Shown: positions 545 to 26,684, counted from the first letter of the stretch. The stretch is 34,877 nucleotides of DNA from Magnetococcales bacterium (GCA_015231265.1 JADGBX010000014.1:1-34877), one strand, 5' to 3'. A program made the numbers and translations. The notes: a model not told the origin generated them from the sequence alone.

Positions 545-1288
545 CTACTCATCAATGCAGTTGGCCTTGGCGCGGATCTCTTCCATGGTCGCCCACAGCA
601 CGATGTCATCGTTATCGTCTTTAGCGGTGCCGGTGGTATTGTTGTTGTCGTAACCGGTAGCATCGTAGATTCTATCGTCCGCATCGGCAGACACGCTACC
701 AACGGCGGTATCCGTCACACCGCCGGGTCTCTTTTTGTGATCGGTGTTGCGGTAGGAGTTCTCGACGGCATTGAAGCCATTGCTCCAGATGACAAAAGCG
801 ACGTTGTCAATCTCAGCAGTAATGGCTGCTGGAGAGACCTCCCTTTCCGTATCTATCTTGATGAAGGCACCATCGGTCCCCCCATTGCCCGCGCTCTCCG
901 GATAATCGTCGTGGGTTCTGTCAAAGAGTGCATCGTTACAGAGCGCATCTTTCTCAGTCAGACGATTATCATAGGCATAGAAGATGGTATTTCCAAAGCC
1001 ATCGGCATAGCGTGGAATGACTGTCTTGAACTCATCATATTCCGGCAGCTTTTTGTTCGCTACCGCATAACCAATGAGAGCCGCTCGATTGGACTCCATA
1101 TAGTCGGTATTGTGCACGCGCTTGTTTTGCGAGGGATCAGGGATCAGGTGCACCATCATCGCCAGAAAGGCTCCCATGGCAATCATACCCAGGGAGAGGC
1201 CGATCAGACCAAAACCGGCTTCTTTTGAAACTACCCCACCCTGTTTCTTAAACATCCGGCAAAAAGCTGTGTCACTGTCCGTGGTCAT
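545..1288 (-). CDS. Pilin-like protein with atypical N-terminal helix (no Glu5)
   Basis: Leader ending in G then FGLIGLSLGMIAMGAFLAMM; start taken at ATG 1288, which overlaps the upstream TGA (ATGA); ORF track start is 1303. Confidence 0.75.
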   Translation of the reverse strand: MTTDSDTAFCRMFKKQGGVVSKEAGFGLIGLSLGMIAMGAFLAMMVHLIPDPSQNKRVHNTDYMESNRAALIGYAVANKKLPEYDEFKTVIPRYADGFGNTIFYAYDNRLTEKDALCNDALFDRTHDDYPESAGNGGTDGAFIKIDTEREVSPAAITAEIDNVAFVIWSNGFNAVENSYRNTDHKKRPGGVTDTAVGSVSADADDRIYDATGYDNNNTTGTAKDDNDDIVLWATMEEIRAKANCIDE

Positions 1289-2757
1289 GGGACAACCATC
1301 CAATTCAAATAGATCGTATCAATACCACCGTTCAAATCAACTGCAGAATGCCAAGTATCTGGAGCAGGTGGCACATCATCCTCCACCATCATTCCAACAT
1401 AAACCTGTGTCGAATTGGTGGAATAAACATACGGGGCCAGTCTCATTTCCGTAAACCCGCTGCTAGAAACAGGAGTAAGAAACACTTGACTTGGAGATGA
1501 AGAAAGGTTGCAAGTGGAAATATCGATGACAGTCCCAACTTCGTTTCCACTGTCTGTCCAAGTTGATCCAGGAGTTGTTGTACCTGAACAAAAATCACTT
1601 CCTGATCCAGAGCTCGAAACAAACAGGTCAAAATCCTTGGAAGCCTCATTTCCTGCAGCATCTTTTACGTGCACTGTAAATGAATATGTGTTTGCAGTTG
1701 ACGATCCAAATGTCGTATCACTGCTATGCTTTGCAATTGGGACATATGGAGTTTGGTCATCACTCACTCCCGTTGCCCATGTTGCACTTCCTTGCGCATT
1801 ATTGGCACATGTGGCTGTTGTTCCGCCAGAGCCATCATTGCCAAGTCCATCGTTGTAGACGATGGGAACAGGGTTTGAATTGACGTTACTGTCAAGGTAG
1901 GAAGCCCCGACATCATCCTGAAACCCTGTGCCGTCATAGTAGTCAAGAAAGAAGCCTGCAATCGTATTGGCAACAGCAGCACCTTCCGTCTCAATGCACC
2001 ACTGATATGGGGCAACACCACCCTCAATATAGATCCTACTCTCAGAACTACTGCTAGTTTCCAAATATATTTTACCCTCCTTTGCATCCTGAACCCTATC
2101 CGTCAGGAAGCGAATGCCTGGGCCACAATCGGCCTTCTCCTTCAGCTCGGCCAGCGTCACCCAGGAGAAGAGGTCATCCATGTAGGAGCCTGAGGTTTGA
2201 TCGTCGTATTTGGGAACAGTAAAGGTGTAGGGTGTATCAGGTAAAGGTGAATAGGACGCCGTTGACACACCGCCATTATAGAGCGTTGTGTTGCTGTGGT
2301 TGCCCTTGGCATCAAATCCGGTACTCCAGATTACAAAGGCGACATTATTGACCGTTGCAGTCTCATTTTTCAGTGGATACTGAACGGAGAGATTGGTTTC
2401 ATTGACATTGCAGATGTCGGCAACCTCATCCGGATCAGGGTTCTCGTTGTACAGAGTCCCTGAGTAAAGATAGAAAACTCTATTGCTCAGTTCGTCGGTG
2501 ATATTAGGAACCGCAGACTTAAAACTATCGAGATTGGGAATCTGCCTATTGCTCCCTGAATACCCTTTGACCGTCTCGGCAATCTTCTGGACAGCCACTT
2601 CGTTCTTGGCCTTGGAGGACATCTTGGCCGTCGGGGTGTAGACCGAGAGACTGGCGGCGGTGACCAGACCGATGATGATCATCACAAGGGAGAGTTCGAC
2701 CAGACTGAACCCGGCCTGTCGGCTCACGGATGCTGTTGCAACGGTCACTTGACGCAT
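1285..2757 (-). CDS. Type IV prepilin-like protein with long C-terminal extension
   Basis: QAGFSLVELSLVMIIIGLVTAAS prepilin cleavage/methylation motif; Ser/Thr/Gly/Asp-rich beta-type C-terminus including YSFTVHVKDAAGNEASKDFDLFVSS. Confidence 0.85.
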   Translation of the reverse strand: MRQVTVATASVSRQAGFSLVELSLVMIIIGLVTAASLSVYTPTAKMSSKAKNEVAVQKIAETVKGYSGSNRQIPNLDSFKSAVPNITDELSNRVFYLYSGTLYNENPDPDEVADICNVNETNLSVQYPLKNETATVNNVAFVIWSTGFDAKGNHSNTTLYNGGVSTASYSPLPDTPYTFTVPKYDDQTSGSYMDDLFSWVTLAELKEKADCGPGIRFLTDRVQDAKEGKIYLETSSSSESRIYIEGGVAPYQWCIETEGAAVANTIAGFFLDYYDGTGFQDDVGASYLDSNVNSNPVPIVYNDGLGNDGSGGTTATCANNAQGSATWATGVSDDQTPYVPIAKHSSDTTFGSSTANTYSFTVHVKDAAGNEASKDFDLFVSSSGSGSDFCSGTTTPGSTWTDSGNEVGTVIDISTCNLSSSPSQVFLTPVSSSGFTEMRLAPYVYSTNSTQVYVGMMVEDDVPPAPDTWHSAVDLNGGIDTIYLNWMVVP

Positions 2758-2918: not shown

Positions 2919-4142
2919 TCAGGCTCCAATAAGCTGATAGAGCGGCATGAACATGGAGAGAAGAAGAACGATAAACACACCACCGCCGATAAAGAGAGCG
3001 ATGGGCTGGATCAGATCCGAGATGTTCTCGATCAGCTCCGTCAGTTTGCGATCATACTCCTCGGCCGCGTAGTCCAACTGCTCACTGAGCGAACCACTCT
3101 GCTCACCAACACCGATCATGCGCACCACGAACGGGGGGAAAATCTCACCGGCTGCAAAGGAGTCGCGCAGACCATTACCTTGTATCAAGCTCTCCCGAAC
3201 GATCCCCATCTTCTGCTTGTACACCTGATTGGTGAGAGAGCTGTACATGATATCGATACTGGTCATCACATCCACACCGGAGCGCAACATCAGACTGAAA
3301 TACTCGGTGATGAACGCCAGATTGGAGTTGTTGATGATTGGCCGCAGTATGGGAAGATGCAAGAATATCCAGTGCATATACCATCGAAATCGCAGGTTCT
3401 TCTTCATCGTATATTTGATCAAGAAAACAATTGTGACAATCGTTACCAGCACGGAGATGGCATATTCCTGAAGAAAGTCGGAGAGCGCAATCACCGTGAT
3501 GGTCAACTGGGGCAGCTCCATCTCGAAGCTCTCGAACATATCCATCATCATGGGTACCACCCAGACCAGCCAGAAGGCAGCGGCACCAAAAATGGCAACC
3601 AAGGTGATGATGGGATAGCGCAACGCCCGCTTCACACCGGAGCGCATGCGGTCCACTTTAACCATATGTTTGGAGGCGTCCTTAACGGTGAGATCGAGGT
3701 TTCCGGTCTCCTCACCGATGCGGAACAGATAGACGATATTCTCTGGAAAAAACCGCTCCCACTTACTGGCTGCTTCGGAGAAATTGGACCCGGTCTCGAT
3801 CCGGTAGACCATATCCCCGCCTACTTTGGCAATCGTCTGGTTGTCACTGGAAGCGATGGTGTCTTTGACCGCAGGAAGAATCGGGATGCCCGCCTTGAGC
3901 ATAATGGCAATGTTATTGAGCAGCTCGGCAATGTCGGAAACGGACCAACGATACTCGAAAAACTGGTCGATACGGGCAACGACCTTTCCCAGTTTTTCTG
4001 GAAGAGGTTTGACGAAGATGACCGCCGAACCCTGCTGCTCCAGGTAGGTAATGGCAGACATGGCACTATCGAAGGGGAGCTCCATGAGCCCGGTCTTCAT
4101 CTTGCCCTTCTCGGTAATCACCTTGTAGTGGAAAAAGGCCAT
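2919..4142 (-). CDS. mshG: GspF/PilC/MshG-family inner-membrane platform protein
   Basis: 407 aa; two repeated T2SSF-like domains with TM segments; PIALFIGGGVFIVLLLSMFMPLYQLIGA C-terminus; adjacent to a GspE-type ATPase. Confidence 0.88.
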   Translation of the reverse strand: MAFFHYKVITEKGKMKTGLMELPFDSAMSAITYLEQQGSAVIFVKPLPEKLGKVVARIDQFFEYRWSVSDIAELLNNIAIMLKAGIPILPAVKDTIASSDNQTIAKVGGDMVYRIETGSNFSEAASKWERFFPENIVYLFRIGEETGNLDLTVKDASKHMVKVDRMRSGVKRALRYPIITLVAIFGAAAFWLVWVVPMMMDMFESFEMELPQLTITVIALSDFLQEYAISVLVTIVTIVFLIKYTMKKNLRFRWYMHWIFLHLPILRPIINNSNLAFITEYFSLMLRSGVDVMTSIDIMYSSLTNQVYKQKMGIVRESLIQGNGLRDSFAAGEIFPPFVVRMIGVGEQSGSLSEQLDYAAEEYDRKLTELIENISDLIQPIALFIGGGVFIVLLLSMFMPLYQLIGA

Positions 4143-4301: not shown

Positions 4302-5975
4302 TCAGTAGCCGAGAACACGCACCACTTCAGCAACGGAGACATCGCCATTCTTAACTTTGGCCACCGCTGAGGCGAACACATCCCGGAAGCCGGTTCTTTT
4401 TGCAGTCTTCAGAATCACATCCATCTGCTCATCACGCGCAATCTGTGCCCTGATCTCCCGATTGGGCCGCAGAATCTCATAGATCAGAGTTCGGCCCAAG
4501 TGGCCGGTTCCATGACATGCTTCGCACCCCTTACCGCGATAGAGTGCTTCGATGGTCTCGTCACCCAGGTATTTCAACTCCGCAGGGCTGGGTCGATACG
4601 CTTCCTTGCAGGTGGGGCAGATCCGCCGCACCAGACGCTGACTCACCACACCGGCCAGCGTATCGGAGAGCATGAACGACGGGATATCCAGCGAACGCAG
4701 TCGTGGAATGGCACCGACGGCGGTGTTCGTATGCAGAGTCGAGAGCACCAAATGGCCCGTTTCCGAGGCCGACACCGCCGTGTGCGCCGTCTCACCATCA
4801 CGAATCTCACCCACGAGGATCACATCGGGATCGTGGCGCAGGAAGAATCGGATAGCGCTGGAAAAGGTGTAGCCCGCTCGGTCGTTGATCTGTGTCTGAC
4901 GGATGAGCGGAATACGATATTCAATGGGGTTCTCAACAGTAAGCACATGCTTGCGGGTCAAATCCAGCGTTCGCACCGCCGCATAAAGGGTGGTGGTCTT
5001 ACCGGAACCGGTTGGGCCCGTCAACAGAACAATCCCGAACGGTTCATTGAAGATCTGCTTCAGCCGCTTGATATCTTCTTCGAAAAATCCAAGCTGCTGA
5101 AGGCCCATGAAGTCACCTTTGGCCGGCAGCAGACGAATGACGACGTTTTCGCCAAAGGGACAGACCGTTGTCGAAACACGGAAATCGTAGTTGTTGTTGA
5201 GGATCACTTCGGAGAAGCTGCCGTCCTGAGGCAACCTCTGCTCGGCGATATCCATGTCGGCTCGCATCTTCAACGTGGTGATCAACCGCTTGAAGGAGAG
5301 AGGAAGGGAAAACATGGAACGCATCACGCCATCCACCCGGAAGGCGACACTGATAGTGAGATCCATGGGGCGGATGTGAACGTCCGATGCTCTGTTCTTA
5401 ACGGCCAACTGGAAAAGATGGCTGATAAAGGTGTCCATGGATCGCACACCATCGGCATCAGCACCAAGCAGTCGAATCTCCTGCTCGATCAACTTTTCGA
5501 CAGGATTTTCAAGGAAATAGTAGTAGTACTGGACGGAGTTCTGAATCTTACCACGCTCACCCTGGACGATTTTGGCGCGCAATCCCGTCCGCTGATTGAC
5601 CAGACGCTCCAGACTATCCACATCATCACTGGCGGAAACCACCAGCAACTCGCCATCCCCTTCACGGCGAACCGGGAGAAAGTTGCCGTTGAGGCACATG
5701 GTCATGTTGAACAGGCGTAGCGTCGTCTCATCGGGTGCGACCTGATCCACGTCCATGTAGGGACGCTTGTCCTGATCGGCAATGGTGGTCGCAACATCGT
5801 ACTGAGAGACGAAACCCAATCGTTCCAGAATCTCACCCAGCTTTTCACTGGTCACCTTCTGATCCTGAAGCGCTAGCTGAATATGGCCATCGTTGATCAA
5901 CCCCTTATCCTGGAGCAGAACACCAATGGGCTTCTTTCTTACCTGTGCACCTTCCATATCCAGCCCCCTATCCAC
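4302..5975 (-). CDS. mshE: GspE/PilB/MshE-family assembly ATPase with N-terminal MshEN-like motifs
   Basis: Walker A GPTGSGKTTTLYA, Walker B DPDVILVGEIRD, tetracysteine CPTC...CEAC; N-terminus PIGVLLQDKGLINDGHIQLALQDQ and KLGEILERLGFVSQYDVATTIADQ. Confidence 0.92.
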   Translation of the reverse strand: MDRGLDMEGAQVRKKPIGVLLQDKGLINDGHIQLALQDQKVTSEKLGEILERLGFVSQYDVATTIADQDKRPYMDVDQVAPDETTLRLFNMTMCLNGNFLPVRREGDGELLVVSASDDVDSLERLVNQRTGLRAKIVQGERGKIQNSVQYYYYFLENPVEKLIEQEIRLLGADADGVRSMDTFISHLFQLAVKNRASDVHIRPMDLTISVAFRVDGVMRSMFSLPLSFKRLITTLKMRADMDIAEQRLPQDGSFSEVILNNNYDFRVSTTVCPFGENVVIRLLPAKGDFMGLQQLGFFEEDIKRLKQIFNEPFGIVLLTGPTGSGKTTTLYAAVRTLDLTRKHVLTVENPIEYRIPLIRQTQINDRAGYTFSSAIRFFLRHDPDVILVGEIRDGETAHTAVSASETGHLVLSTLHTNTAVGAIPRLRSLDIPSFMLSDTLAGVVSQRLVRRICPTCKEAYRPSPAELKYLGDETIEALYRGKGCEACHGTGHLGRTLIYEILRPNREIRAQIARDEQMDVILKTAKRTGFRDVFASAVAKVKNGDVSVAEVVRVLGY

Positions 5976-6088: not shown

Positions 6089-8911
6089 CTAGTAGTTCGT
6101 GATCAGCCCCTTCACTGCATACTTGCGCTCCAGAACACTCTTCAACACCTCGGCATCCTCCATATCCTGAAAGGCACCACTGCGCACCACCCACCATGTC
6201 GACCTGGAAGCCGAAGAACGAACCGGTTTGATCACTGCAGGAAATCCGTCCCGTACCAAACGGTCTCTCAGAGCGACCGCCAATGACTCTCGATCGAAAG
6301 AGGCAACCTGAACCGACAGTGTTGAGGGCCGCCTCGGGGTGCGCTTCTGCTTCTCCTGTACCGGAACAGGCTTGACGCGTTTACGCTTTTGGGGGGCACT
6401 GCCAACCGTCGTCGTTTTCCGCCCTTTGGCGGCATGCACCAATCTATAGAGCGTCGTTACATCAGGATAACCGGTCTCCGTCATACCGATTCCCTTCTGA
6501 AATGCCGTCAGTGACCGCATGGTGTTGCGCCCGACGTTACCATCCAGAGGAAAACGGTAGTAGCCCAGTTTGGCAAGCAGCTTCTGCAACTTGGTTACTT
6601 CGTCGCTCTGCATGCCATAGTAGAAGCGATCCAGCGTGATCGGAGATTTCCAGAAAATGAGTGTCTCTTCCTCTATACCGGTATCAACGCGAAAGAGGTG
6701 CTCTCTGTTTTGCGGCTCCTCACCAGGGCGAAGACGTACTAAGGAGAGTCCTTCCTGACGCACGATGCGCTGGGCAATTTCATCAATCCAGCCATCGTCC
6801 AACGCTCTGGCAAAGGTGTCGTGATGCTCTTCAAGGCCATACGCTTCAAGGAATGGCCGCAGTCCCGGATAGTTACTTCCCACAACAGCGGGGTTCAAAT
6901 CGGCTTCTGCGCCAGAACCTTCTCCTCGAACTGCGGCGTTACGCACACGGCGCATCTCATCACGCACCCGCATCATTTCACGCTCTGCCCGTTTACGAGC
7001 CTGTTCCGCCTCCTTCAACGCCTTGGCTGACGACGCCTGCATGCGTTTTAGTTCCGCTTCGGCCTCTTCTCGAACAGCACTCTCCTTCTCAAGAGCACGG
7101 GCTTCGGCTTCAGCCTGGACACGAGAAAGCTGCTGCTCAGCCCGTCGTCGGATACGTTCCGCCTCTTCCATCGCTTTGGAAGCAGCCTGTTTGACCCGTT
7201 CCGCCTCCTCTCGGGCTGTGGACGCTTCCGACAACGCTTTGTCACGTGCCATGTGCGCTTCGGCCAGCGCTTGAGACTGTTTCTGTGCAGTTTGTTGCAA
7301 CCGTTCAAGAACAGCTTGACGCTTGGCCAAAAACATTTCAGCATTATCACGAGCTTTTCTGGCGCCCTGCAGCACCTCTTCCCGCTTCTGGGCTTCCAGA
7401 GCCGCTTTTCGCGCTTCGGCACGCGCTTCGCTGCGCGTCTCTTGACTGGATTGCGACGCAAGAAGCAGTGCTTTGGCTGCCTGACGTTTGGCCAGTGACG
7501 CTGCCTCCTCGGCAGCAGCTTGAGCCTCTCGTGCTCTCTCAAGATGCTCTTCTTGGGCGTTCAATTTTGCCAACGCTTCGGCACGCAGGGCTTGAACACG
7601 CAGCGCATCCGCTTTGATACGCGCCATCTCTGCCCGAGCCTTCTCCTCCTCCGTTTTTGCCCGGGCAACTTCTGCCTTGGCCTTCTCCTGAGCAACACGG
7701 GCTGAGATGGTCTCGGATTTTGCCTGCTCCTTGGCGCGCTTGGCACGAGCAAACTCCGCTTCCGCCTGGGCACGAAGATTCTCAATGCTCACGGCATCGG
7801 TCATCGGCAGAGAAACCGGTTTGGAAGAGATCGTCTCTTCATGGGCCGTCGGAGTGTGCAACACACCGTGTTTTTCAAGAAACGACAAGAGATAAGGTCC
7901 GGAAACATAGGCTGCACCGGCAAGAATCGCTCCCCCAATCAACCACAGAACAACACCCATAAGTTTGGATGGTGTCCGCTCCCCACCGACTTCGGCTGGC
8001 GGGCTGAGCCCCACCTCCTCTGAGATCTCCTGAATCAGAGCCCGGCTCATTTTTGACGTGTTATAAGCGAAGAGACCGTAGAGCGCACGATCCATCAACT
8101 TATTGATCAATCGCGGATTACCATCGGTCAATTCATGAATAAGACGGAACGCCCTATCCGGAATCGTGATACCACCATGACCACCGGCGGCGTTAATCTT
8201 GAAAAAGGCGTACTGCTTGAGATCATCGAGAGAGAGGGGCTGAACCCGCCCATGTACGACCACTCGGCTCTTGAGCTGCCGTAGCTCATGGCTGTTGAGC
8301 TTCTCCTCCAACTCCGGCTGACCCACTAGAAGAATCTGAACCAGTTTTTCGGCATTGGTCTCCAGATTGGAGATCATGCGAATCAGCTCAAGACTGTCTT
8401 TGGTAAGGTTTTGCGCATCGTCCACCACAAGAGCACAGTTGATACCCTTGTGGTAACGATCCATCAGGAAATCGTTCAGGACAGAAAGATGCCTCTGGGG
8501 AACCGCATCATCCACTTCGATACCAAAATCACGATTGATTTCAGCGAGAAGGTCCAATCCCTGCAGATAGGTATTGAGAACCAGAGCGGTCTCGATCTGC
8601 TGCCCTTCCATGATCCGGAGTAGGCGCTGACTGATGGTGGTTTTGCCCAGCCCGACCTCACCGGTCAGAATCATGAACCCCTTACGGGTTTGGATACAGT
8701 GCAGAGTCTCTGCGATTAGAGAATCGATACGTGAGGGGAGATAGAAGGAGTCGACATCAGGAGCAACGGGAAAGGGGTTCTTCTGCAACCCCAGGAAGTC
8801 GAGATAGGCCTCTCTCTGAGAGGCCATGGCAGCCAGTTCCGAAAAGGTCGCATTTCCGGCAGCAGATGCAGCCGCATCACTCTGTGGGTTGCCCTGTGGC
8901 TTTTGAGTCAT
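6089..8911 (-). CDS. AAA+ ATPase (MshM/ExeA-like) with TM segment, long coiled coil, peptidoglycan-binding-like and SPOR-like C-terminal regions
   Basis: NPFPVAPD...GFMILTGEVGLGKTT (Walker A), CALVVDDAQNL (Walker B); TM LMGVVLWLIGGAILAGAAYV; ~290 residues rich in A/E/R/K; MQSDEVTKLQKLLAKLGYYRFPLDGNVGRNTMRSLTAFQKGIGM (PG_binding_1-like); LSVQVASFDRESLAVALRDRLVRDGFPAVI...WWVVRSGAF (SPOR-like). Confidence 0.88.
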   Translation of the reverse strand: MTQKPQGNPQSDAAASAAGNATFSELAAMASQREAYLDFLGLQKNPFPVAPDVDSFYLPSRIDSLIAETLHCIQTRKGFMILTGEVGLGKTTISQRLLRIMEGQQIETALVLNTYLQGLDLLAEINRDFGIEVDDAVPQRHLSVLNDFLMDRYHKGINCALVVDDAQNLTKDSLELIRMISNLETNAEKLVQILLVGQPELEEKLNSHELRQLKSRVVVHGRVQPLSLDDLKQYAFFKINAAGGHGGITIPDRAFRLIHELTDGNPRLINKLMDRALYGLFAYNTSKMSRALIQEISEEVGLSPPAEVGGERTPSKLMGVVLWLIGGAILAGAAYVSGPYLLSFLEKHGVLHTPTAHEETISSKPVSLPMTDAVSIENLRAQAEAEFARAKRAKEQAKSETISARVAQEKAKAEVARAKTEEEKARAEMARIKADALRVQALRAEALAKLNAQEEHLERAREAQAAAEEAASLAKRQAAKALLLASQSSQETRSEARAEARKAALEAQKREEVLQGARKARDNAEMFLAKRQAVLERLQQTAQKQSQALAEAHMARDKALSEASTAREEAERVKQAASKAMEEAERIRRRAEQQLSRVQAEAEARALEKESAVREEAEAELKRMQASSAKALKEAEQARKRAEREMMRVRDEMRRVRNAAVRGEGSGAEADLNPAVVGSNYPGLRPFLEAYGLEEHHDTFARALDDGWIDEIAQRIVRQEGLSLVRLRPGEEPQNREHLFRVDTGIEEETLIFWKSPITLDRFYYGMQSDEVTKLQKLLAKLGYYRFPLDGNVGRNTMRSLTAFQKGIGMTETGYPDVTTLYRLVHAAKGRKTTTVGSAPQKRKRVKPVPVQEKQKRTPRRPSTLSVQVASFDRESLAVALRDRLVRDGFPAVIKPVRSSASRSTWWVVRSGAFQDMEDAEVLKSVLERKYAVKGLITNY

Positions 8912-9179: not shown

Positions 9180-10301
9180 TTAGAAACCCCTGTGGAAATA
9201 GCGCATGACATTGTGCAAACGCTTGTCGCCGGGATGGGTCCTGATCAAGCTACGAATGCGTGTCCGCGCCTCTTCCATTCTATTGGTCTTCATCTCGATC
9301 AACGCGAGATTGAATCCCGCTTCAAGATCATCCGGTTTCTTCTTGACTGCCATGGCGAAAAACTGACCGGCACGCGGAATATCCCGTTGTTTCAAGTGCC
9401 AGAAACCACGCATTTTTAACAAGAAGAGATTATCTCTCCCTTTGATGCGCTCCAGTTCCGCAAATGCGGACCGAACCGCCTCTACATCTCTGTTGTTCAT
9501 CGCCAACTTCAGATCCTGCACGCCTCGTGCAACCTCAAGTCTGTTATCTCGAGTCACAACGGTGGGCCTGACCGGCTCTTCAACGGCATCTTCGATATCA
9601 GCTTCCGGTATGGCATTATCCACATAAGTCTCTGGCTCGGGCTGAGAGAGACGAATGGGTGAAGGTTCGGGTTTGCTTTTGACTTCAGCGGGAACATCGG
9701 GAACTTCCGGCATCACATCATCCTGCATGATATCCGGAAGTGCAGCAAAAAGAGCATCGATATCTGAAGCATCGGAACGAGGTGTGGAGGGTGTTCCGGC
9801 CTTCTCCAACATCCCAATCATCGAATCGCCATCAACCGTTCCAGCTGCAGTGGGGACCGACACCTCAGCGAGGTTTGCAGGCGCAGGTTGGGCAGGTGCA
9901 GGAGGAGGCACCATGGGCGATTTGGCAGCAGGGAGGTTTCCTAGTGCAGCAGGAGCAATAGCGCCCTTTTGCGGAGACGGAATAGCGACCTTTTGGGAAG
10001 GAATTTTCCACGACACGGGTGCCGATTGACCAGCAGGTGCCGATTTAATCGGGGCTTTCTTCGCGACTGCAGTTTCCGACGACGACTCCATATCCGTCAA
10101 CATCCAGACATACACAGCCCCAGCGACGACAATAAGCCCAAATGCAGCCAGCATCCGCTTCTTGTCGAAGGTCGATTTGATTGAGTCTTCGTCATCCTTC
10201 TGGCCCTTCTTCTTACCGGCACCTTGGGCCAAACCCGGCCCAACACCCGCAGAATTAGGAGAGCCTTTCAGATTGCGCAGAGCGCGATAGATGACACTCA
10301 T
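9180..10301 (-). CDS. MshN-like membrane protein with C-terminal TPR region
   Basis: MSVIYRALRNLKG N-terminus, single TM (MLAAFGLIVVAGAVYVWML), Pro/Ala-rich linker, TPR-like C-terminus; start overlaps secretin stop (ATGA). Confidence 0.7.
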   Translation of the reverse strand: MSVIYRALRNLKGSPNSAGVGPGLAQGAGKKKGQKDDEDSIKSTFDKKRMLAAFGLIVVAGAVYVWMLTDMESSSETAVAKKAPIKSAPAGQSAPVSWKIPSQKVAIPSPQKGAIAPAALGNLPAAKSPMVPPPAPAQPAPANLAEVSVPTAAGTVDGDSMIGMLEKAGTPSTPRSDASDIDALFAALPDIMQDDVMPEVPDVPAEVKSKPEPSPIRLSQPEPETYVDNAIPEADIEDAVEEPVRPTVVTRDNRLEVARGVQDLKLAMNNRDVEAVRSAFAELERIKGRDNLFLLKMRGFWHLKQRDIPRAGQFFAMAVKKKPDDLEAGFNLALIEMKTNRMEEARTRIRSLIRTHPGDKRLHNVMRYFHRGF

Positions 10302-12025
10302 AGAATCTGTACCCGCAGCATGATGACCAGTTCACTAACGATTTCCGAATTCTGATCCTTGGTGAAAAGACGGCCCAACAGAGGAATCTCCGAAAGAACC
10401 GGGACACCCGTTCTGACTTCCGTCCTGTTTTTATCGATCAGGCCACCGATAAACACAGTATCGTTGTTATTGAGGTCCAGAACGGTGCTGATCTCCTTAA
10501 GATCAACCTGAGGCAGCGAGACAGCCGTTGTACTGGTACCAACCTGAGTCGGTGTGAGAGTGCTGGCCTGCACGTCACTCTGGATAGGATGAACCACCAG
10601 CGAGACCCGCCCTTCGTTGGAGATGAAGGGGATAACACCAAGAATCAAACCATCAAACACCGTTTCTGTCTGCACATCGACACCGGTGGTCGTAGCAGTG
10701 TCAGCCACGGTCACTTCCGTCTGTCGGATATAGGCACTGCTGCGTCCGACGCTGATCATGGCCGGTTGACCATGTTTTGCCCGAATACTGGGATTGGAAA
10801 GAACCTGAACTTCACCGAACTGCTTGAGCATGTCCAGAGCAACCAACCCGCTCCGTCCTGCCATTGCCAAACCGAATCCGGCAAGGCTGGCAATGGAACC
10901 GGTGCTCAGATCCGACGTCGTTGCTGAAGCGAAGTTACCGAGTCCGAAAGCTGGATTCTTAACACCCTGATCACCACTCCCTTTAAACGGGTATTGACCG
11001 GAATTGGTTGTGATGGATTGCGCAAGCCCACTTGAAGCGGAAACACTGTTGCGCAACAGCGCCCAATCGACACCGGCTCGAAACTGATCAGTCAGACGAA
11101 TCTCCATGATCCGCGCTTCAATCAGGATCTGACGACCCAGAATCTCTTTATAACGGTTGATCAGACCGGAGACCGTTTTCAATGCGGACGGTTTGGCTTT
11201 GACGTAGAGGGTGCCGGTCATCGAGTTCAGATGATAACTACCACCTCCAGCCGTTACGAGAGGCTGAATAATCTCGGTGATCTTCTGGTAAGGATTGGAA
11301 ACCGCCGGCCCTTGACCAGAAACATTGAAGGACCCTGTCATGCCACCGATAACATTGTTGGACGACGTAGCAGCACCAAGGACGTCACCACCAACACTGA
11401 AGTTGGTGGTCATGTTGGTTTCCATGAAGTCGAGATCGAAGACCGACTCCTGAAACAGCTCGACGCGCAAGACATTATCTTCGACCCGACCATAGAGATC
11501 AGCCGTCTGAAGGATCTCGCGGAACACGGTCGATGCTGGCACTTCGCTGAAGCTTACGCTCAGAATTGGCGGATTACTAACCACCTGCGGGTGCAGCAGC
11601 AGGTTCATATTGGTCTGCTTGGCAAGCGCCTGCAGCAGATGACGAACATCCGCCTTATCCATCTCCAGTGAGACCAGAATGTCATCCAACGGATCATATT
11701 CTGGCTCAACGGGATCGGGGGTCGGTGGTTGATCACCCTGGACCTGCATGTCCCGCGTGATCGTCTGCAGGCGATTGGCTGCGTCCTGTGACCCCTTCGT
11801 CAACAGTTCGTGTGGGTTGGTGCGCTTTGGAGAGCTCTCCAACTGCTCAAGATCCCGACGCAGTTCACTTTGGTGATCCTGCAATTTTTTCGACTCATCC
11901 ATGAGCCGGGCATGAGTTCTCTCAAGACTGGGAGGCGTATTCTCCGGCTCCTTGCCCATGGTTTGGCATCCCGCCAGCAGCGCAACCAACGCTGCTAATC
12001 CGCCCATATACCCAAGCAGTCTCAT
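10298..12025 (-). CDS. mshL: MshL-type secretin, predicted lipoprotein
   Basis: Lipobox LLAGC; ILIEARIMEIRLTDQFRAGVDW, VLSNPSIRAKHGQPAMISVG, VPVLSEIPLLGRLFTKDQNSEIVSELVIMLRVQIL secretin signature. Confidence 0.9.
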   Translation of the reverse strand: MRLLGYMGGLAALVALLAGCQTMGKEPENTPPSLERTHARLMDESKKLQDHQSELRRDLEQLESSPKRTNPHELLTKGSQDAANRLQTITRDMQVQGDQPPTPDPVEPEYDPLDDILVSLEMDKADVRHLLQALAKQTNMNLLLHPQVVSNPPILSVSFSEVPASTVFREILQTADLYGRVEDNVLRVELFQESVFDLDFMETNMTTNFSVGGDVLGAATSSNNVIGGMTGSFNVSGQGPAVSNPYQKITEIIQPLVTAGGGSYHLNSMTGTLYVKAKPSALKTVSGLINRYKEILGRQILIEARIMEIRLTDQFRAGVDWALLRNSVSASSGLAQSITTNSGQYPFKGSGDQGVKNPAFGLGNFASATTSDLSTGSIASLAGFGLAMAGRSGLVALDMLKQFGEVQVLSNPSIRAKHGQPAMISVGRSSAYIRQTEVTVADTATTTGVDVQTETVFDGLILGVIPFISNEGRVSLVVHPIQSDVQASTLTPTQVGTSTTAVSLPQVDLKEISTVLDLNNNDTVFIGGLIDKNRTEVRTGVPVLSEIPLLGRLFTKDQNSEIVSELVIMLRVQIL

Positions 12026-13492: not shown

Positions 13493-13689
13493 AAGCGTGT
13501 CCTTGAGGCATGTTGACTTTCGGAGCAGATCCTCGTTTGTGCCTGAAAAAGTATCAGGCAAGACGTGAGCAGTGCGGTTTGGTACACCAAATGAGCGACG
13601 AACAACGCAGCATGACGCTTTTCAGTCCGAACCCGACGGGCTTGCGCCATGCCAGCGCGGATATGGGCGGAATGCCAACACGTCTCTAG
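13493..13689 (+). repeat. Degenerate copy (D) of the ~186-bp inverted-repeat element
   Basis: Shares gcgtgtcct, cgtttgtgcctgaaaa, caggcaaga, gcggtttgg and ccaaatgagcgacgaacaacgcagcatg with the copies at 32517 and 23747; ends degraded, limits approximate. Confidence 0.75.
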
Positions 13690-13820
13690 TTGTACAGACA
13701 GCCTTGCTGCTACACAAGCGGGCACACAATAGCATGCTGTTCTTAACATTCTTAGTCACGATTCAACGTCAGAATGGTTCGGACTTGTGTATCCGGCGCT
13801 TAATCACTACCCTCTTGAAC

Positions 13821-14768
13821 ATGGAAAGCGAACAGGAAGGACCCATCCCCCGCACACTGTTTATCACTGGCGCTAATGATCCCTACTTTACTGTGATCAC
13901 GTCGTTGCTGATGTCTTTTCGGCTGTTTGAGCCGAATCAGACGCTCATGGTGTGTGATTTCGGCCTCAGCAATGAGCAGTGCCGCTTTCTCTCCAGCCAG
14001 GGTATTCTTCTACCGATGCCGACGGACCTTAAGGGGGGGCTTCACCCTTTCTATTACAAGGCTTCCATCTGGAAATATGTCGAGCACATTGATTTCGACA
14101 GGCTGGTCTGGATCGATGGGGACTGCTTGATTGCCAATCCCGTCGCCAGAGAGATCAACAAGCACTTCTCTCCCCATATCGCTAAAGGGGCACCATTTAT
14201 GGGTGCATGCCAGGACTCCGTCGGAACGATTGGCCAGTTCTGCAACAATTTTGATGTCGCCCCGTTTGATAAACTCCTTGACCAACACGGCATCTCCCGA
14301 GACCTACCCTACCTCAACAGCGCCGTCTTCATGGTTAACTCCCATGAGATGCTCCGCGAGTGGCACCGTCTGATCTTTGAGATCGAGTCGCATATTCTAC
14401 ATGAACAGAATCTTTTCAATATTCTGACGTACACCCTGTTCGACAGCCCGGAACTGCTGGATAGAAGAATCTGGAACGTCCACGATCTACACCTCAACGA
14501 CTTGAAGGTAGAGACCGACACCGACGACCCTGCCCTGCCCTATCAAATCCTACTGAACGATGCTCCCGTACAACTTGCGCACGCCACATCTTTTCAGGGA
14601 CGCGCGGTGACCGCAAAACCCATGCGTATCCCCGTTGGAGATAGAGTCATAGACGGCTATGTCAGAACCACTAAAAACCCACATGTTGCCTATCTTTTTC
14701 AGAGCATGATGAGCTACTTCCTGCTCCAAAACAAAGCGGATCTCACTAAATGCGGTGTCTTGAACTGA
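13821..14768 (+). CDS. Glycosyltransferase-like (nucleotide-diphospho-sugar transferase type)
   Basis: PRTLFITGANDPYFTVITSLLMSFRLFEPNQTLMVCDFGLS...DRLVWIDGDCLIAN (DxD-like motif); ORF-track start 13572 lies inside the repeat, ATG 13821 (MESEQEG) preferred. Confidence 0.7.
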   Translation: MESEQEGPIPRTLFITGANDPYFTVITSLLMSFRLFEPNQTLMVCDFGLSNEQCRFLSSQGILLPMPTDLKGGLHPFYYKASIWKYVEHIDFDRLVWIDGDCLIANPVAREINKHFSPHIAKGAPFMGACQDSVGTIGQFCNNFDVAPFDKLLDQHGISRDLPYLNSAVFMVNSHEMLREWHRLIFEIESHILHEQNLFNILTYTLFDSPELLDRRIWNVHDLHLNDLKVETDTDDPALPYQILLNDAPVQLAHATSFQGRAVTAKPMRIPVGDRVIDGYVRTTKNPHVAYLFQSMMSYFLLQNKADLTKCGVLN

Positions 14769-14798: not shown

Positions 14799-17243
14799 TT
14801 AGAAAGCAATCTCCAACATGGTGATATCATCAGCCTGTTCATCGCCGTGCTGATGCTCCTGAACCTCCTCCAGAACCTGCTCCAAGAGACACTCCCGCTC
14901 ATCCGGCTCCTGTGTCACTATCTCCTCAAGGCGCGCTTGACCGAACATCACCCCTTTGCTGTCATCCGCCTCAATTACACCGTCCGAGTAGGCATAAACC
15001 CTGTCCCCGGAATCAAGGGTGATGGATTGAACGGCTTCCTCAGGCATGAGAAGCTCATGAATCCCCAACGGCAGGTGCCGCGATTCAATACGTGTTGCCA
15101 CACGACCTGCCCGCACAACCAGCATCTCCGGCAAGCCCGCATTGAACAGCCGCAATCGCTTCTCGCTCATACTCACTTCGATAAGACCTGCCGTCAGATA
15201 GAAACCGGTCGGCAATTTCAACGTAAGTTTCCGATTCATCTCATCGATGATTTCGAGAAGATCCAGATCCTTGGCGGTCATACTGTAGAAGATATCCGAC
15301 ACCAAAGGGCCGCCGATTGCCGAAGGCAGACCATGCCCGGTAAAATCACCAATCAGAATATGCTGGAGGCCATTGGGACGCTGAGCAGAGAGAAGCAGAT
15401 CACCCGCCGTCTTCTCAACGGGAGCAAGCAGGAAACGCAGGACACCGGGGTCAAACTGGTCAGAGCTGCGAATCCTGACCAAAATATTTTCGATAAACTT
15501 CCTCTCAAATGCCAGTTTATCGCGATGGTGCTTAACATCCTCAAGCGCCTGCTCCAAAGCCTCATCCACCCTCTTACGCTCAACAACACTCGCCAGTGTT
15601 CCACTGATGAGAGAAAGAAATCGCTCATACGCCTGTGACCGCACTATCGACCGCTTCAAATGGACACTCAGAACACCGATAAGGCCGTCTGAAGTGATGA
15701 TCGGCATGCAGTAGTGGCTCTGATCCTCTTCTCTTTTAAAGTGTGTTTGGGCGTTTTCCTCCTGAGATAAGGAGAAAACCAGCGCCTTCCTGGAAGCCGC
15801 CTCACCGCACAGACACTGCCCATAAGGCACACGTGCGCATTCAGATCGCACGTCGGCGGGCAGACCCTCCGCGGAGACCAGTCGCAACTTCTCGCTCTCG
15901 GTATCATCTTGAAGGAAGAGCGCTCCCTGGGCATCAGCCTCGCGCAGCCATGAGAGCCGTAGTGTCTGGGCCAACGCTTGATCCAGCTGCTCTTGAAGGG
16001 GTGCTCCACTCAATGCGAAACGGAGAATCGCTTCCGTAGTATCCTGCACCTCTTGTGACAACCCCTCCATCCAGACCGCCCGCAAACGCCTGATACGAGT
16101 CCTCATAAAGAAGAAGGCACCGACAACAACCAGAATCGTTGCAACAAGATAGAAGAAAAGAAACTTCTTATTGATCAGGAAGAGATCATCGGCAACAACA
16201 TGTGCAGGTCGGATGACGACAAGTTTCCACTGATCCAAATAGGGTTTGAATCCTACGACATCATCGTATGGAGAGAAGAGCGTACCGACACTCTCGATCT
16301 CTGCCATACTGCTCACGGGCTCGACAGTTGCGTAGGTCACCAATCCCCCGTCAAAACGTTTCTGTCCATTGCCATGGGGTGCCATCCAGCGCCAAAGAGC
16401 CGGATGGCGGATGGCAAATGTCCGATCTCGATTCTTCGACCACATAAACCCCCAGAGGTCGTCATATCTCGGACCGACCATCCAGTAGCCCGTACTATTC
16501 AACAGATGGAGTTCACAGCCGACGCATAACTCACGTCCGTCCAATCCACTCAGCAGATTCCGACCTGCATAGTTGAGCACCAACATCCCGATACGCTTGC
16601 CATCGATGGCATGCAGCATCATGCCAAAACGGATCACCGGATTGAACGGCAGCTCCACCTTGCCGTACTCGATATTGAGATCAAAAGGGGAGACGTAAAC
16701 GGCATTGGGGGTCATGCGTTGGACGTTGGAGACGTAATAACGGTTGCTTTTATCCTGAAGCTGATCCTTGGCAACCAGCTCTGTTCTACCCCCCGTACGA
16801 TTAACACGAACCCGTTCACGCCCGTGCTCGTCCAATAGACGTGCTTGGAGAAAATCTGCCTTGCGATCTGAAAACGCAAAGAGCATCTCTTCAACACCAG
16901 CGATAAAGAGGTGATCTCGATTACTGAGGGAGTGCATCAACTGCACCTGACGGGCAAGGACTTGAATATCCGCCATCACTGCATTGAATACACCGATAAG
17001 ATAGCGTGAATGCACTCGTACAGCACTTCTATCTACTAACTCCATACGCTCCTGATAGCGCGCTGAATCGAAAGCATAGATGGTGAAGAATGCCAGGGAG
17101 AGAATGATATAAAACGGGAAAAAAGCCTGAGAAAAATATGCCAGACGCCACTTCTCTTCGTCAGGTGCTTGCAGGTCCTGCACATCGGAATCGCTGTTGT
17201 GCATATCCATTTCGCCAGAGTACCCTGGTAGCACCCGCCACAC
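14799..17243 (-). CDS. Membrane sensor - GAF - SpoIIE/PP2C-type serine phosphatase
   Basis: N-terminal TM and Cache-like extracytoplasmic region; GAF with GQCLCGEAA; GDLLLSAQRPNGLQHILIGDFTGHGLPSAIGGPLVSDIFY and RVYAYSDGVIEADDSKGVMFG (SpoIIE motifs). Confidence 0.85.
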   Translation of the reverse strand: MWRVLPGYSGEMDMHNSDSDVQDLQAPDEEKWRLAYFSQAFFPFYIILSLAFFTIYAFDSARYQERMELVDRSAVRVHSRYLIGVFNAVMADIQVLARQVQLMHSLSNRDHLFIAGVEEMLFAFSDRKADFLQARLLDEHGRERVRVNRTGGRTELVAKDQLQDKSNRYYVSNVQRMTPNAVYVSPFDLNIEYGKVELPFNPVIRFGMMLHAIDGKRIGMLVLNYAGRNLLSGLDGRELCVGCELHLLNSTGYWMVGPRYDDLWGFMWSKNRDRTFAIRHPALWRWMAPHGNGQKRFDGGLVTYATVEPVSSMAEIESVGTLFSPYDDVVGFKPYLDQWKLVVIRPAHVVADDLFLINKKFLFFYLVATILVVVGAFFFMRTRIRRLRAVWMEGLSQEVQDTTEAILRFALSGAPLQEQLDQALAQTLRLSWLREADAQGALFLQDDTESEKLRLVSAEGLPADVRSECARVPYGQCLCGEAASRKALVFSLSQEENAQTHFKREEDQSHYCMPIITSDGLIGVLSVHLKRSIVRSQAYERFLSLISGTLASVVERKRVDEALEQALEDVKHHRDKLAFERKFIENILVRIRSSDQFDPGVLRFLLAPVEKTAGDLLLSAQRPNGLQHILIGDFTGHGLPSAIGGPLVSDIFYSMTAKDLDLLEIIDEMNRKLTLKLPTGFYLTAGLIEVSMSEKRLRLFNAGLPEMLVVRAGRVATRIESRHLPLGIHELLMPEEAVQSITLDSGDRVYAYSDGVIEADDSKGVMFGQARLEEIVTQEPDERECLLEQVLEEVQEHQHGDEQADDITMLEIAF

Positions 17244-17573
17244 CGCAGGAGAGGAGGGAAAAGAGTCGCGTCACACAAGACCTGAACGGTCGATTTAGTC
17301 TCGCGAGATACCACCTGCACGCGTGACCAGTACTCTCCATCTCCAGTTTGACGGAATGCACTGCTGAAAAAAAGCGCGTATTGTCATAGCAGAATGGTAA
17401 TGTTGTAGGACAGAGTGTCACAGCTCTTGGGAGTTGGCAAGATCCACCCGGGACCCAAGAGCAGAGATTCGCATAGGACTCAACAGCTTGTTGCGTACAA
17501 CATCAACAACGCTCTTCAATGATCGATGACACATCCTCCACTTACACCCTCGCAAGAAAGGAATCCGGATACA

Positions 17574-18536
17574 ATGCAGACTCGACGAACAGTGCTTATC
17601 GGTTGGATCGTTACATTCCTTAGTCTCATGGGAGCCTCCCAGGCCTCCAGTGCACCACCTGTCGTGATCATGGCCGACGGCTTCGGAGATTGCTGTACCC
17701 ATCGAATGACCACACTGATTGATGGACTGAAATCCATGGGAGCGGTCTTCCCCGCCATTCAGAAGCGTGGACTCAGTGGCGGTTCGTATGGTGATCACGT
17801 CAATCCCTGGAACAGCCTGACGGGCACGGATCAGGGTTTTGGCGTCAACATGGATCTGAGTTCCTATCTTTCGGCCAATCCCGAGAGCCTGATGGGAGCG
17901 GCATCCAGTTTCATGAATGGAGGCGGGAACAACACCGCCTCACTCCTGCAGCAGAACAAAGAGAAGATCATGCAGGCTGTGCGCAAAGGGAGTGATGACC
18001 AGTTCATGACTGAAGTCTCCAGCTATGTTGATAGCTTGCCAAAAGATCAACCGGTGATCCTGATCGGACACAGTTTCGGGGCTGATTCCGTGACAAAAGT
18101 CGCCAAAAGAATCAGCCGTCCCATTCTCTTTCTCGGCGCCTTGGATCCTGTCGGAGCTGGTGGAATGCGGCGGATGACCAAGGATCGTGAGATTCCAGGC
18201 AATGTGATCTACTTCTATAATCGCTGGCAGGAGAACGAGGTGTTCCCGTTTGATTTTGGGAAATCAGGCGCTTTCGGCCACTGTCGTGCCAAAACATGCG
18301 ATCAGAAAGAACAGTCCGTCGCCAAAAAGAGCTCAGGAACCCGATCCGGCTCTTCACTGGGTCATATTCCCTTCCCCTCAGACCCGTTCATTCAGCAGGA
18401 GATCCTGACTATTATCAAGCAGCTTCTCAGCACAGGATCGGCAAAAAGTGGCAGTAGTTCTTCGGACAGCAACAACAGCCTATCGCCGAAATCTGTGATG
18501 GAGAATCTTCCGGCGTCGTTGCCGAAACTCTTCTGA
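17574..18536 (+). CDS. Exported alpha/beta hydrolase-like protein
   Basis: Signal-like MQTRRTVLIGWIVTFLSLMGASQASSA; nucleophile elbow VILIGHSFGADSV; ORF track starts at 17526. Confidence 0.7.
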   Translation: MQTRRTVLIGWIVTFLSLMGASQASSAPPVVIMADGFGDCCTHRMTTLIDGLKSMGAVFPAIQKRGLSGGSYGDHVNPWNSLTGTDQGFGVNMDLSSYLSANPESLMGAASSFMNGGGNNTASLLQQNKEKIMQAVRKGSDDQFMTEVSSYVDSLPKDQPVILIGHSFGADSVTKVAKRISRPILFLGALDPVGAGGMRRMTKDREIPGNVIYFYNRWQENEVFPFDFGKSGAFGHCRAKTCDQKEQSVAKKSSGTRSGSSLGHIPFPSDPFIQQEILTIIKQLLSTGSAKSGSSSSDSNNSLSPKSVMENLPASLPKLF

Positions 18537-18561: not shown

Positions 18562-20055
18562 TCACCTTGAAGGATCGTTCATCCGCCCGAGAAAAATCAC
18601 TTGGCCGCTGGAGCGCTGGATGATCATATAGAGGAAGGGATGATCGGCTCGAAAAACGGGTGGCGGAGGAGGAGGGGCTGAATCGGGAGCACAGCCCAAT
18701 GCCATGAGAATCGCTGTGGCTGCTGCCGCTTCAGCCCCCTCTTCATTCACCTCAACCCTGGTTTTGTGAATCACCTTCGAAATAGAGAGCGATCGGTCGG
18801 GGTCCAAGGTGCCGGTAATGCCGGAAAAATCGGCCTGGACATCATCAAACGGCAATGCCATACCCATCTCGATCAGAAGATCAGAAAGCTCCATACTCTC
18901 TTCCGTTTTGAAACGGGGCAGAAAGATCTGCACCTCCCTGTTGACCAGACTCCTGCGCCAGTCGGCAACTGCCTCTTCTGAAAGTGCCGCTTCCAGATCG
19001 GCAAGCTGGGCGAGGTCTCTGGGCAACAGAAACAGCATGGCATGGTCGGATGGGCTTGGTGGCGCCTCAGACACCATCAACTCCCCACCGTCCAAAACCC
19101 CATCTGACCGCTCTTCAGAGGGTGTTCTCAAATCGTCACCGGAGACCGCTTGCGGTTTTCTGACACCATAGACAAGCTCGATGATCTGCATCGACGTCCC
19201 TTCGCCGTACAGAACCTCCCGCGTATCCTGCATATAGGTTACCGGAACCGCCTCTGTTCCCACAGCAGGAAAGAAATCACCCTCCTGAGAGCATCCCGGA
19301 TCAAAAGGCACCATCCACGCCCCTTTGAAATAAAGAGCGTTCACAAGCACAAGGCGGGTCAATGGGGAGAGCATCTCGGGATCGATGATTTCAGGTATGC
19401 GTCCCCGTGTCTGTTCCGAGGTCCAACGATTGATCACACCGGCCGCTTCGACCGCCGCCTCCTGGTAATCCACCAGTTCATACTTGGAACCCAGGATATC
19501 CCGCACCAGTCGCAAATAACTCTCCCTGGGAGCATCACCGGTCTGCCCCCACAGACTGTTTGCCACACGGTAGGTAAGCCCACATCTCTCCGCGCTCTCG
19601 ATCATGGAATCTTGAAGCGCACCCACTGCCGCAATTAGACGTGCTTCGGAGAGTTCTGGAAGGGAAAGAATCTGCCGCATCTGTGCTGCAGTCTCGTTTC
19701 TGGCTCCCGCCAGGGCCATCGCCAGCGCTGTCACAATACTTGTCGGTGAGATGCACCGACTCTTGGCACTCTCTTGCCGTTGCTGAAACAGACGAAAAGC
19801 GAAACTGTTGATAGCATGAATCACAGCCTCTGCATCGGCAGAGAGCTTGCTCTCCCCCATCACGTCTCTTTGGTGAGAAGAGCTCAAGGCCGATGTAAAT
19901 GGTATGTGCGTTCGCTCCTCCTGTGCATATGTCACAGGCTCGTCGCTTGGAATGGCAATCACTTCATCAGTAGGAACGTGAGACGGAGTATCATCGGCCA
20001 CTGCATTATCTTTTCTTATCAAACGATTTATCAGTTTTTTCAGCTGACTCTCCAC
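18562..20055 (-). CDS. Serpin (serine protease inhibitor)
   Basis: FAFRLFQQ...CISPTSIVTALAMALAGARNETAAQM; LVLVNALYFKGAWMVPFD; IHKTRVEVNEEGAEAAAATA hinge; FRADHPFLYMIIQRSSGQVIFLGRMNDP. Confidence 0.93.
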   Translation of the reverse strand: MESQLKKLINRLIRKDNAVADDTPSHVPTDEVIAIPSDEPVTYAQEERTHIPFTSALSSSHQRDVMGESKLSADAEAVIHAINSFAFRLFQQRQESAKSRCISPTSIVTALAMALAGARNETAAQMRQILSLPELSEARLIAAVGALQDSMIESAERCGLTYRVANSLWGQTGDAPRESYLRLVRDILGSKYELVDYQEAAVEAAGVINRWTSEQTRGRIPEIIDPEMLSPLTRLVLVNALYFKGAWMVPFDPGCSQEGDFFPAVGTEAVPVTYMQDTREVLYGEGTSMQIIELVYGVRKPQAVSGDDLRTPSEERSDGVLDGGELMVSEAPPSPSDHAMLFLLPRDLAQLADLEAALSEEAVADWRRSLVNREVQIFLPRFKTEESMELSDLLIEMGMALPFDDVQADFSGITGTLDPDRSLSISKVIHKTRVEVNEEGAEAAAATAILMALGCAPDSAPPPPPPVFRADHPFLYMIIQRSSGQVIFLGRMNDPSR

Positions 20056-25775: not shown

Positions 25776-26684
25776 CTATCCTTCACAAATCACGCGATTC
25801 CTTCCCGCCTCTTTGGATCTATAGAGACAGGCATCAGCCTGTTCTATAGCGGATGCCGGTGCATCCTCCGGTTTTGGATCGATGAATGCACAGCCAACAC
25901 TGATGGTGACAACCTCTCCTGACGGAGACGCTTCATGGGGGATAGCCAACGCCATGACCGATTGCCGTAACCCTTCCGCTACCTGACAGGCCCCTTCCTG
26001 ATCGGTTCTCGGCAGCAGGGCCACGAACTCTTCGCCTCCATAACGGGCGACCAGATCGATATCCCGTTTGATAGCGTCTGATAGTGCTTGAGCAACCGCA
26101 CGTAAACAGTGATCTCCTTCCTGGTGACCGTAGTGGTCGTTGAACAGTTTGAAGTGGTCCACATCCATCATGATCAGAGAGAAGCCCCTCTTCTCACGAA
26201 TACTGCGATGCCATTCACTCTTCAGGGTACTCTCAAAGCGACGACGGTTCGCTATTCCGGTCAATCCATCCTGAAAACTCATGGACTCCAGACGCTCTCT
26301 GTAACGCTTCAGAGTGAGCTGGTTCTCCACCCGCATTTTGACAACACCCGGGCGAACCGGTTTGGGAATGAAGTCGGACGCTCCCAGTTCCAGACCAATA
26401 ACCTCTTCCTTTTCGCCATCCATCGCGGTGACGAAGATCACGGGGATCTCTTTGGTATCCTCGGACCCCTTCAGACGACGGCACACCTCAAACCCATCCA
26501 TCTCCGGCATATCGACATCCAAGAGCACCAGATCCGGCGGATCTTCATGGCACGCTTTCAGCGCATCAAGACCATTGGTGGCAAAGGTGACCTCATGCTC
26601 CTCACCAAGTGCCTCATAGAGTACTTGGATATTGGTCGGCATATCATCAACAAGGAGAATTTTTCCCGAGCATTTTTCGTCCAT
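25776..26684 (-). CDS. Response regulator with GGDEF output domain (diguanylate cyclase)
   Basis: ILLVDDMPTNIQVLYEAL...LVLLDVDMPEMDGFEVCRRLK REC; RDIDLVARYGGEEFVALLPR with I-site RDID. Confidence 0.93.
   Translation of the reverse strand: MDEKCSGKILLVDDMPTNIQVLYEALGEEHEVTFATNGLDALKACHEDPPDLVLLDVDMPEMDGFEVCRRLKGSEDTKEIPVIFVTAMDGEKEEVIGLELGASDFIPKPVRPGVVKMRVENQLTLKRYRERLESMSFQDGLTGIANRRRFESTLKSEWHRSIREKRGFSLIMMDVDHFKLFNDHYGHQEGDHCLRAVAQALSDAIKRDIDLVARYGGEEFVALLPRTDQEGACQVAEGLRQSVMALAIPHEASPSGEVVTISVGCAFIDPKPEDAPASAIEQADACLYRSKEAGRNRVICEG

Follow-up and report, generated by a model that had tools for sequence, protein, structure and literature searches.

A SPOR domain and a long periplasmic helix on the MshM-like ATPase of MSHA-type pilus loci in Magnetococcales

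Why would the ATPase of a pilus locus carry two predicted wall-binding domains and a helix longer than the periplasm? The gene that raises this question lies on a complete contig of 34,877 bases (the window) from a MAG of the Magnetococcales, a group of magnetic bacteria; the MAG has 459 contigs and is about 80% complete. In MSH (MSHA) systems mshE, mshG, mshL and mshM are mandatory (PMC6668835), and MshM is the part that is mandatory yet uncharacterised (PMC6668835, PMC9815625); we give the present finding moderate weight, since the V. cholerae protein is described as being of unknown function (PMC9815625). In order of transcription, the gene and its neighbours in the window are as follows.

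10298-12025, minus strand: mshL, secretin (TIGR02519 pilus_MshL, 277 bits, cut-off 250.2)
9180-10301, minus strand: mshN-like gene, protein with TM segment and TPR (TPR_19), syntenic in all complete Magnetococcales loci seen
6089-8911, minus strand: mshM-like gene, a single intact ORF of 940 aa, with intact orthologues in 18 other Magnetococcales genomes
4302-5975, minus strand: mshE, extension ATPase with MshEN c-di-GMP-binding motifs (T2SSE, MshEN; NF053729, 45.7 bits, cut-off 38)
2919-4142, minus strand: mshG, platform protein (T2SSF, 144 bits)
1285-2757, minus strand: prepilin-like protein (N_methyl, TIGR02532)
545-1303, minus strand: possible second prepilin-like protein, from a hydrophobic N-terminal stretch and the adjoining pilins; no Pfam or NCBIfam match

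These four genes are all in the window: mshL is recognised by TIGR02519, mshE and mshG by T2SSE/MshEN and T2SSF together with synteny, and mshM as an ExeA-type AAA ATPase gene between mshL/N and mshE. A major pilin, mshA, is mandatory as well, and the prepilin-like gene with N_methyl at 1285-2757 is a candidate for it. The order L-N-ATPase-E-G recurs in every Magnetococcales locus that does not run into a contig end. Genes of a T2SS do not adjoin, and the window showed no recognisable ExeB/GspB gene; because the neighbours are msh genes, the 940-aa protein was filed as MshM and not as ExeA, and a mechanism like that of ExeA would have to rely on a different partner. The MshM/ExeA identity and the pilus context proposed in the initial annotation are supported by profile matches, structure prediction and conserved synteny, on which grounds the protein is assigned as the MshM of an MSHA-type (type IVa-like) pilus locus. 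Several Magnetococcales have homologues of mshJ, mshI and mshK downstream of the pilins. In the genome of the window, homologues of mshJ and mshI stand beside a prepilin-like gene at the end of another contig (C70; L216, 4780-6839). The window's msh locus stops at the contig end, and C70 probably carries its missing portion; with these homologues the pilus machine is probably complete. The idea that the long helix substitutes for a missing alignment complex, which the absence of mshJ/I/K near mshL in the window might suggest, was dropped in view of these downstream and C70 homologues. The same genome has, on contig C222 (L057, L217), a second complete-looking msh cluster whose MshM is 537 aa long and has neither SPOR nor the long helix; similar clusters occur in G011 and G007.

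The initial annotation had placed the 940-aa ORF at exactly these coordinates and left the strand unstated. Its domain order, namely ATPase, TM segment, a stretch of A/E/R/K/Q, a peptidoglycan-binding motif and SPOR, proved right by Pfam, hydropathy and AlphaFold, and the parts are located as follows, all on the minus strand.

8006-8806, minus strand: ExeA/MshM-type AAA ATPase, predicted cytoplasmic, aa 36-302 (Pfam AAA_22; TIGR03015-related)
8639-8662, minus strand: Walker A motif GEVGLGKT, aa 84-91, its G, K and T invariant or nearly so in the family alignment
7904-7969, minus strand: single transmembrane helix, aa 315-336 (hydropathy and AlphaFold)
7403-7798, minus strand: long helix, segment 1, aa 372-503, 132 residues (AlphaFold; Pro-free, A/E/R/K/Q-rich)
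6923-7372, minus strand: long helix, segment 2, aa 514-663, 150 residues (AlphaFold; low-confidence break at about aa 488-518)
6641-6862, minus strand: EXD (a name coined here), predicted periplasmic alpha/beta domain, aa 684-757, conserved in most syntenic MshM and without a Pfam name
6440-6607, minus strand: PG_binding_1, aa 769-824 (fold like the SleB N-terminal domain, 6tci)
6104-6322, minus strand: SPOR, aa 864-936, with Q868, W906 and R910 (RlpA SPOR fold)

The three Pfam families named beforehand all score above their cut-offs: AAA_22 at aa 76-205 (76 bits against 27), PG_binding_1 (PF01471) at aa 769-824 (41.9 bits against 23) and SPOR (PF05036) at aa 864-928 (33.8 bits against 21). 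TIGR03015, the XrtA/PEP-CTERM-associated ATPase, matches with 217.5 bits, which is under its curated cut-off of 324.5. The top hydropathy peak covers aa 318-336 (H=2.02) and AlphaFold places a helix at 314-331, so that the ExeA/GspA-type set of AAA, TM segment and PG_binding_1 is present in one protein. Since the window comes from a fragmented MAG, a frameshift or an assembly join of two separate genes had to be considered; the ORF is intact, however, and independent Magnetococcales genomes show the same plan in one ORF, with the long helix in G018 (20 contigs) and with a short linker in G010 (one contig). The orthologue in G018 is a single ORF of ~960 aa with 41% identity across residues 2-940, and this alignment, together with the gene at the same place in 18 other Magnetococcales genomes, excludes chance as the origin of the plan. 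We consider a two-gene artefact refuted by these orthologues and give it no probability.

The C-terminal 265 residues were modelled by AlphaFold with 43 sequences at a mean pLDDT of 88.5, and Foldseek was run with this model alone, the full-length model being judged too weak. EXD is modelled with three helices and three strands at a pLDDT of about 90; it has no Pfam match, and Foldseek of the C-terminal model matched it to no known fold. PG_binding_1 superposes on the SleB N-terminal domain 6tci (TMt 0.90, rmsd 1.3), and SPOR, in which AlphaFold gives the order beta-alpha-beta-beta-alpha-beta, on the RlpA SPOR domain 6i09/6i05 (TMt 0.83-0.84, rmsd 1.8); hence both folds named by the initial annotation were borne out. 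None of the Foldseek matches of the C-terminal model had an E below 0.001, probably because a three-domain query chain was matched piecewise. A profile search of PDB sequences reaches, in addition, the SPOR domains of FtsN, DedD and DamX. The EpsAB structure 4g54 is a weak Foldseek match (E 0.09), and the profile match to it spans the PG_binding_1 region.

Five FtsN residues, Q251, S254, W283, R285 and I313, matter for septal localisation; in RlpA the corresponding residues include Q270, and R309 and R311 belong to a basic patch (PMC6895207). With WxxVRxG aligned by eye, Q868 of the window protein corresponds to FtsN Q251, W906 to W283 and R910 to RlpA R311, while S871 is at the position of S254. 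Among the 18 SPOR-bearing orthologues Q868 and W906 are invariant (18/18 each) and R910 is kept in 17/18. The position of FtsN R285 and RlpA R309 is occupied by V908, so the affinity for glycan could be weaker. Thus the glycan site looks functional, as far as residue conservation indicates, though it is not identical to those studied, and septal or polar targeting would be plausible. FtsN, RlpA and DamX share the SPOR fold and partly the Q...W...R glycan-contact pattern; they lie outside any pilus locus.

Orthologues were found in 19 of the 48 Magnetococcales genomes searched, the window's own included; many of these genomes are incomplete MAGs, and genome-contig loci that duplicate genomes already counted are excluded from the 19. 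The same architecture stands beside mshL and mshE genes in Magnetococcales loci, where the initial annotation had proposed to look for it. SPOR is present in 18 of the 19. In a Pfam scan of a 23-member set, which consists of the 19 and four more distant short relatives, PG_binding_1 was detected in every member and SPOR in 17 at E <= 0.1, and a family-specific profile with the alignment adds one further SPOR member. The only window-type MshM orthologue without SPOR is that of G013 (L040, 4261-7206), in which the msh locus is still present; mshE starts 13 bases past the mshM stop, so SPOR appears to have been really lost there.

A scan of genome contigs gave 80 loci. Syntenic msh loci with an MshM of the ATPase-TM-linker-PG_binding plan were found in Desulfobacterota, Burkholderiales, Gammaproteobacteria and Nitrospirota, among other groups, and the complete syntenic MshM-like ORFs outside Magnetococcales are mostly about 475-630 aa long, with AAA, TM segment, short linker, usually EXD, and PG_binding_1. 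The MshM of Desulfobacterota, Burkholderiales and Gammaproteobacteria shares with the window protein the place in mshL-(N)-M-E-G, the AAA domain, TM segment and PG_binding_1, and in most of the closer ones EXD, but has no SPOR and no long helix. Hence the fusion of ATPase and peptidoglycan-binding domain that the initial annotation had singled out is present, but MshM is commonly built this way in many msh loci, and the fusion is nothing special here. With the family-made profile no SPOR was detected in complete syntenic MshM-like ORFs outside the order, and 399 genomes sampled from the phylum yielded, among the matches examined, no MshM with SPOR outside the order. Long ORFs from outside the order that might have been SPOR variants, such as an 828-aa open frame in G206, are ordinary short MshM or GspA-type proteins once the start codon is set. 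In plasmids, the matches listed span the AAA domain only. As judged from these comparisons, the features specific to Magnetococcales are the SPOR domain and the long helix, and the AAA/PG_binding plan is ordinary.

In a tree of the single AAA domain, with the trait columns left out, the 19 Magnetococcales MshM fall on one side of a branch with support 79/90 (not starred). On this tree SPOR needs at least 2 changes and the helix 3; L050, which is placed inside a helix-bearing clade (98/69), has probably lost the helix. An A/E/R/K/Q-rich spacer of 325-479 residues is found in 14 of the 19 orthologues (342 in the window protein), and in the other five the spacer has only 58-90 residues and is mostly Pro-rich. 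The long helix is dispensable, judging from these five natural variants with a short linker instead. Moreover, the one-contig genome G010 has a SPOR version without the long helix, and thus the functions of SPOR and helix would be separable across natural variants.

In the window protein the Pro-free, A/E/R/K/Q-rich helical core covers aa 370-673 (304 residues) and would measure about 44-46 nm if straight, computed at 0.15 nm per residue; in the long-helix orthologues the core has 317-475 residues (48-71 nm). The initial annotation spoke of a very long coiled coil; the helix is long, but it is not a uniformly strong heptad coiled coil. By global Fourier analysis the hydrophobic periodicity of 3.5 residues is not above shuffles (p about 0.2), and 'coiled coil' is therefore to be read as long amphipathic helix. 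Locally windowed periodicity is above shuffles (z = 5-6, likewise at 3.6 and 3.67), opposite charges at i+4 exceed them (z = 2.4) and like charges are depleted, the shuffles preserving composition only. The full-length AlphaFold model, with helices at 372-503 and 514-663, is weak (mean pLDDT 65, pTM 0.30). A conserved central hinge or hairpin was considered on account of its weak mid-break and rejected, because the weakest position of the helix is scattered over 0.19-0.86 of its length in the orthologues. A second weak spot, about 80-90 residues in, recurs in several orthologues and is deleted in the window protein. Expansion of the helix through DNA tandem repeats was also considered, and no such repeats were found. 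One stretch of the helix is similar in sequence across several families, which is consistent with a common origin.

The periplasm measures about 30 nm and the distance from outer membrane to wall 12-25 nm, according to PMC9239104. The claim that the helix is longer than the periplasm thus holds, and a straight perpendicular helix does not fit: it would have to slant or follow the wall, bend or fold back on itself. An unusual envelope, which had been offered as another way out, is supported by nothing observed. TolA, the middle part of which is a long helix, resembles this MshM in being membrane-anchored and periplasmic with a C-terminal binding head; it has no ATPase, another head and other partners. 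TolA extends through the periplasm (PMC12927319), and by analogy the long helix might be a stiff strut or force transmitter to the outer membrane, with the head touching outer-membrane parts and not the wall. A length of 292-304 residues, greater than the distance between the two membranes, and the strong local amphipathic and charge periodicity would fit such a strut. However, the head consists of two wall-binding folds, five of the 19 orthologues do without the long helix, and a spacer of 325-479 residues without a conserved central hinge is too variable for a measured strut, so we regard this explanation as improbable.

We favour, with some confidence, another reading: that MshM is an ExeA/GspA-like factor which couples the MshL secretin to peptidoglycan, that through SPOR it gains affinity for the denuded glycan of septa or new poles, and that the helix is a length-tolerant tether. 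ExeA/GspA of the T2SS (Aeromonas, Vibrio) shares the cytoplasmic AAA ATPase, the single TM helix and the periplasmic, peptidoglycan-binding PG_binding_1; it differs in having the partner ExeB/GspB in the T2SS, and neither SPOR nor a long helix is reported there. GspA has a cysteine-peptidase-like region (PMC9239104). In the case of ExeA, binding to peptidoglycan drives the formation of ExeAB multimers, and the ExeD secretin does not assemble without it (PMC4098917). By the same logic the AAA ATPase of MshM would lie in the cytoplasm, anchored in the inner membrane by its one TM helix, and the periplasmic part would bind peptidoglycan in two ways, through PG_binding_1 as in ExeA/GspA and through SPOR, which would prefer glycan that amidases have denuded at septa and new poles. 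MshM would probably multimerise on the wall like ExeA and, perhaps with MshN, help MshL to insert through peptidoglycan and to stay in it, preferentially where it is denuded; the helix of 130 + 150 residues would serve as a slack tether or spacer that links the membrane to the wall-binding head. MshN is a reported homologue of TadD, itself needed for assembly of the Tad secretin (PMC6668835).

The peptidoglycan-binding domains could instead be passive anchors against pulling force, the ATPase regulating extension of the pilus, together with MshE or PilT for instance, with no part in secretin assembly or choice of site. For V. cholerae a possible part of MshM in pilus dynamics has been put forward (PMC9815625), and in almost every locus seen mshM directly adjoins mshE. 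ExeA/GspA, the closest architecture that has been studied, has its role in secretin assembly, however (PMC4098917), and with PG_binding_1 already present a site-specific SPOR would be superfluous for plain anchoring; we consider this alternative possible but rather unlikely. SPOR proteins often act in division, and the domain is unusually abundant in Magnetococcales, so that a DamX-like membrane protein, acting mainly in cell division and merely located in the msh locus, might also be thought of. But the mshL/N/E/G synteny is conserved across several phyla, and ATPase, EXD and PG_binding_1 are orthologous to those of MshM in other lineages, which makes a division factor very improbable.

Wall-binding modules in pilus and secretin machines have precedents. 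According to PMC9239104 and PMC6617341, the Legionella T2SS secretin LspD has an N-terminal SPOR domain; SPOR is thus used there too within a secretin machine, likewise of the type IV filament superfamily, but on the secretin itself, and here on the accessory ATPase. In P. aeruginosa the peptidoglycan-binding AMIN domains of PilQ recruit the pilus machine to division sites (PMC5285504); AMIN is likewise a pilus module that binds denuded peptidoglycan, but belongs to another domain family and is on the secretin. MshL gave no AMIN match in the Pfam scan of the window. Experiments on Magnetococcales MshM were not found in the literature, and in the SPOR, secretin and pilus literature that was open to the search, most subscription journals being outside it, there was no description of AAA, long helix, PG_binding_1 and SPOR together on an MshM. 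SPOR in the Legionella secretin and AAA-PG_binding in GspA were already known, and what appears new is their combination with a long helix on MshM.

MshM follows the ExeA plan in most loci examined, wall-binding head included, and a single lineage has gained a further, putatively site-selective wall-binding domain along with a spacer longer than the periplasm. This gives a specific hypothesis for MshM, wall-coupled assembly or placement of the secretin, and suggests how Magnetococcales might anchor or place their pili. Tentatively, the SPOR domain of MshM may direct installation of the Magnetococcales MSHA pilus to division sites or new poles by reading denuded glycan, a task that PilQ AMIN has in Pseudomonas, the over-long helix letting the wall-bound head move relative to the ATPase.

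Rfam and tRNA scans of the window returned nothing. The window also encodes a serpin (18562-20055, minus strand; PF00079, E=2e-91), a family uncommon in bacteria. The plus-strand ORFs 13572-14768 and 17526-18536 have no Pfam match at E<=0.001; by eye only, the former is glycosyltransferase-like and the latter resembles an exported alpha/beta hydrolase. A SpoIIE phosphatase (14799-17243) and a hybrid histidine kinase of 1876 aa (26693-32323), both on the minus strand, have HK_sensor_dom_bact (PF21623) in common, and a GGDEF response regulator (25776-26684) is encoded directly downstream of the kinase. Across whole genomes, SPOR matches at E<=1e-6 have a median of 14 per genome in this and 30 other Magnetococcales, against 3 in 89 other Pseudomonadota. 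Several large Magnetococcales ORFs bear two or three SPOR copies, and a 709-aa protein near the msh locus of G010 (L056, 659-2788) has several SPOR-like repeats in its translation as read by eye.
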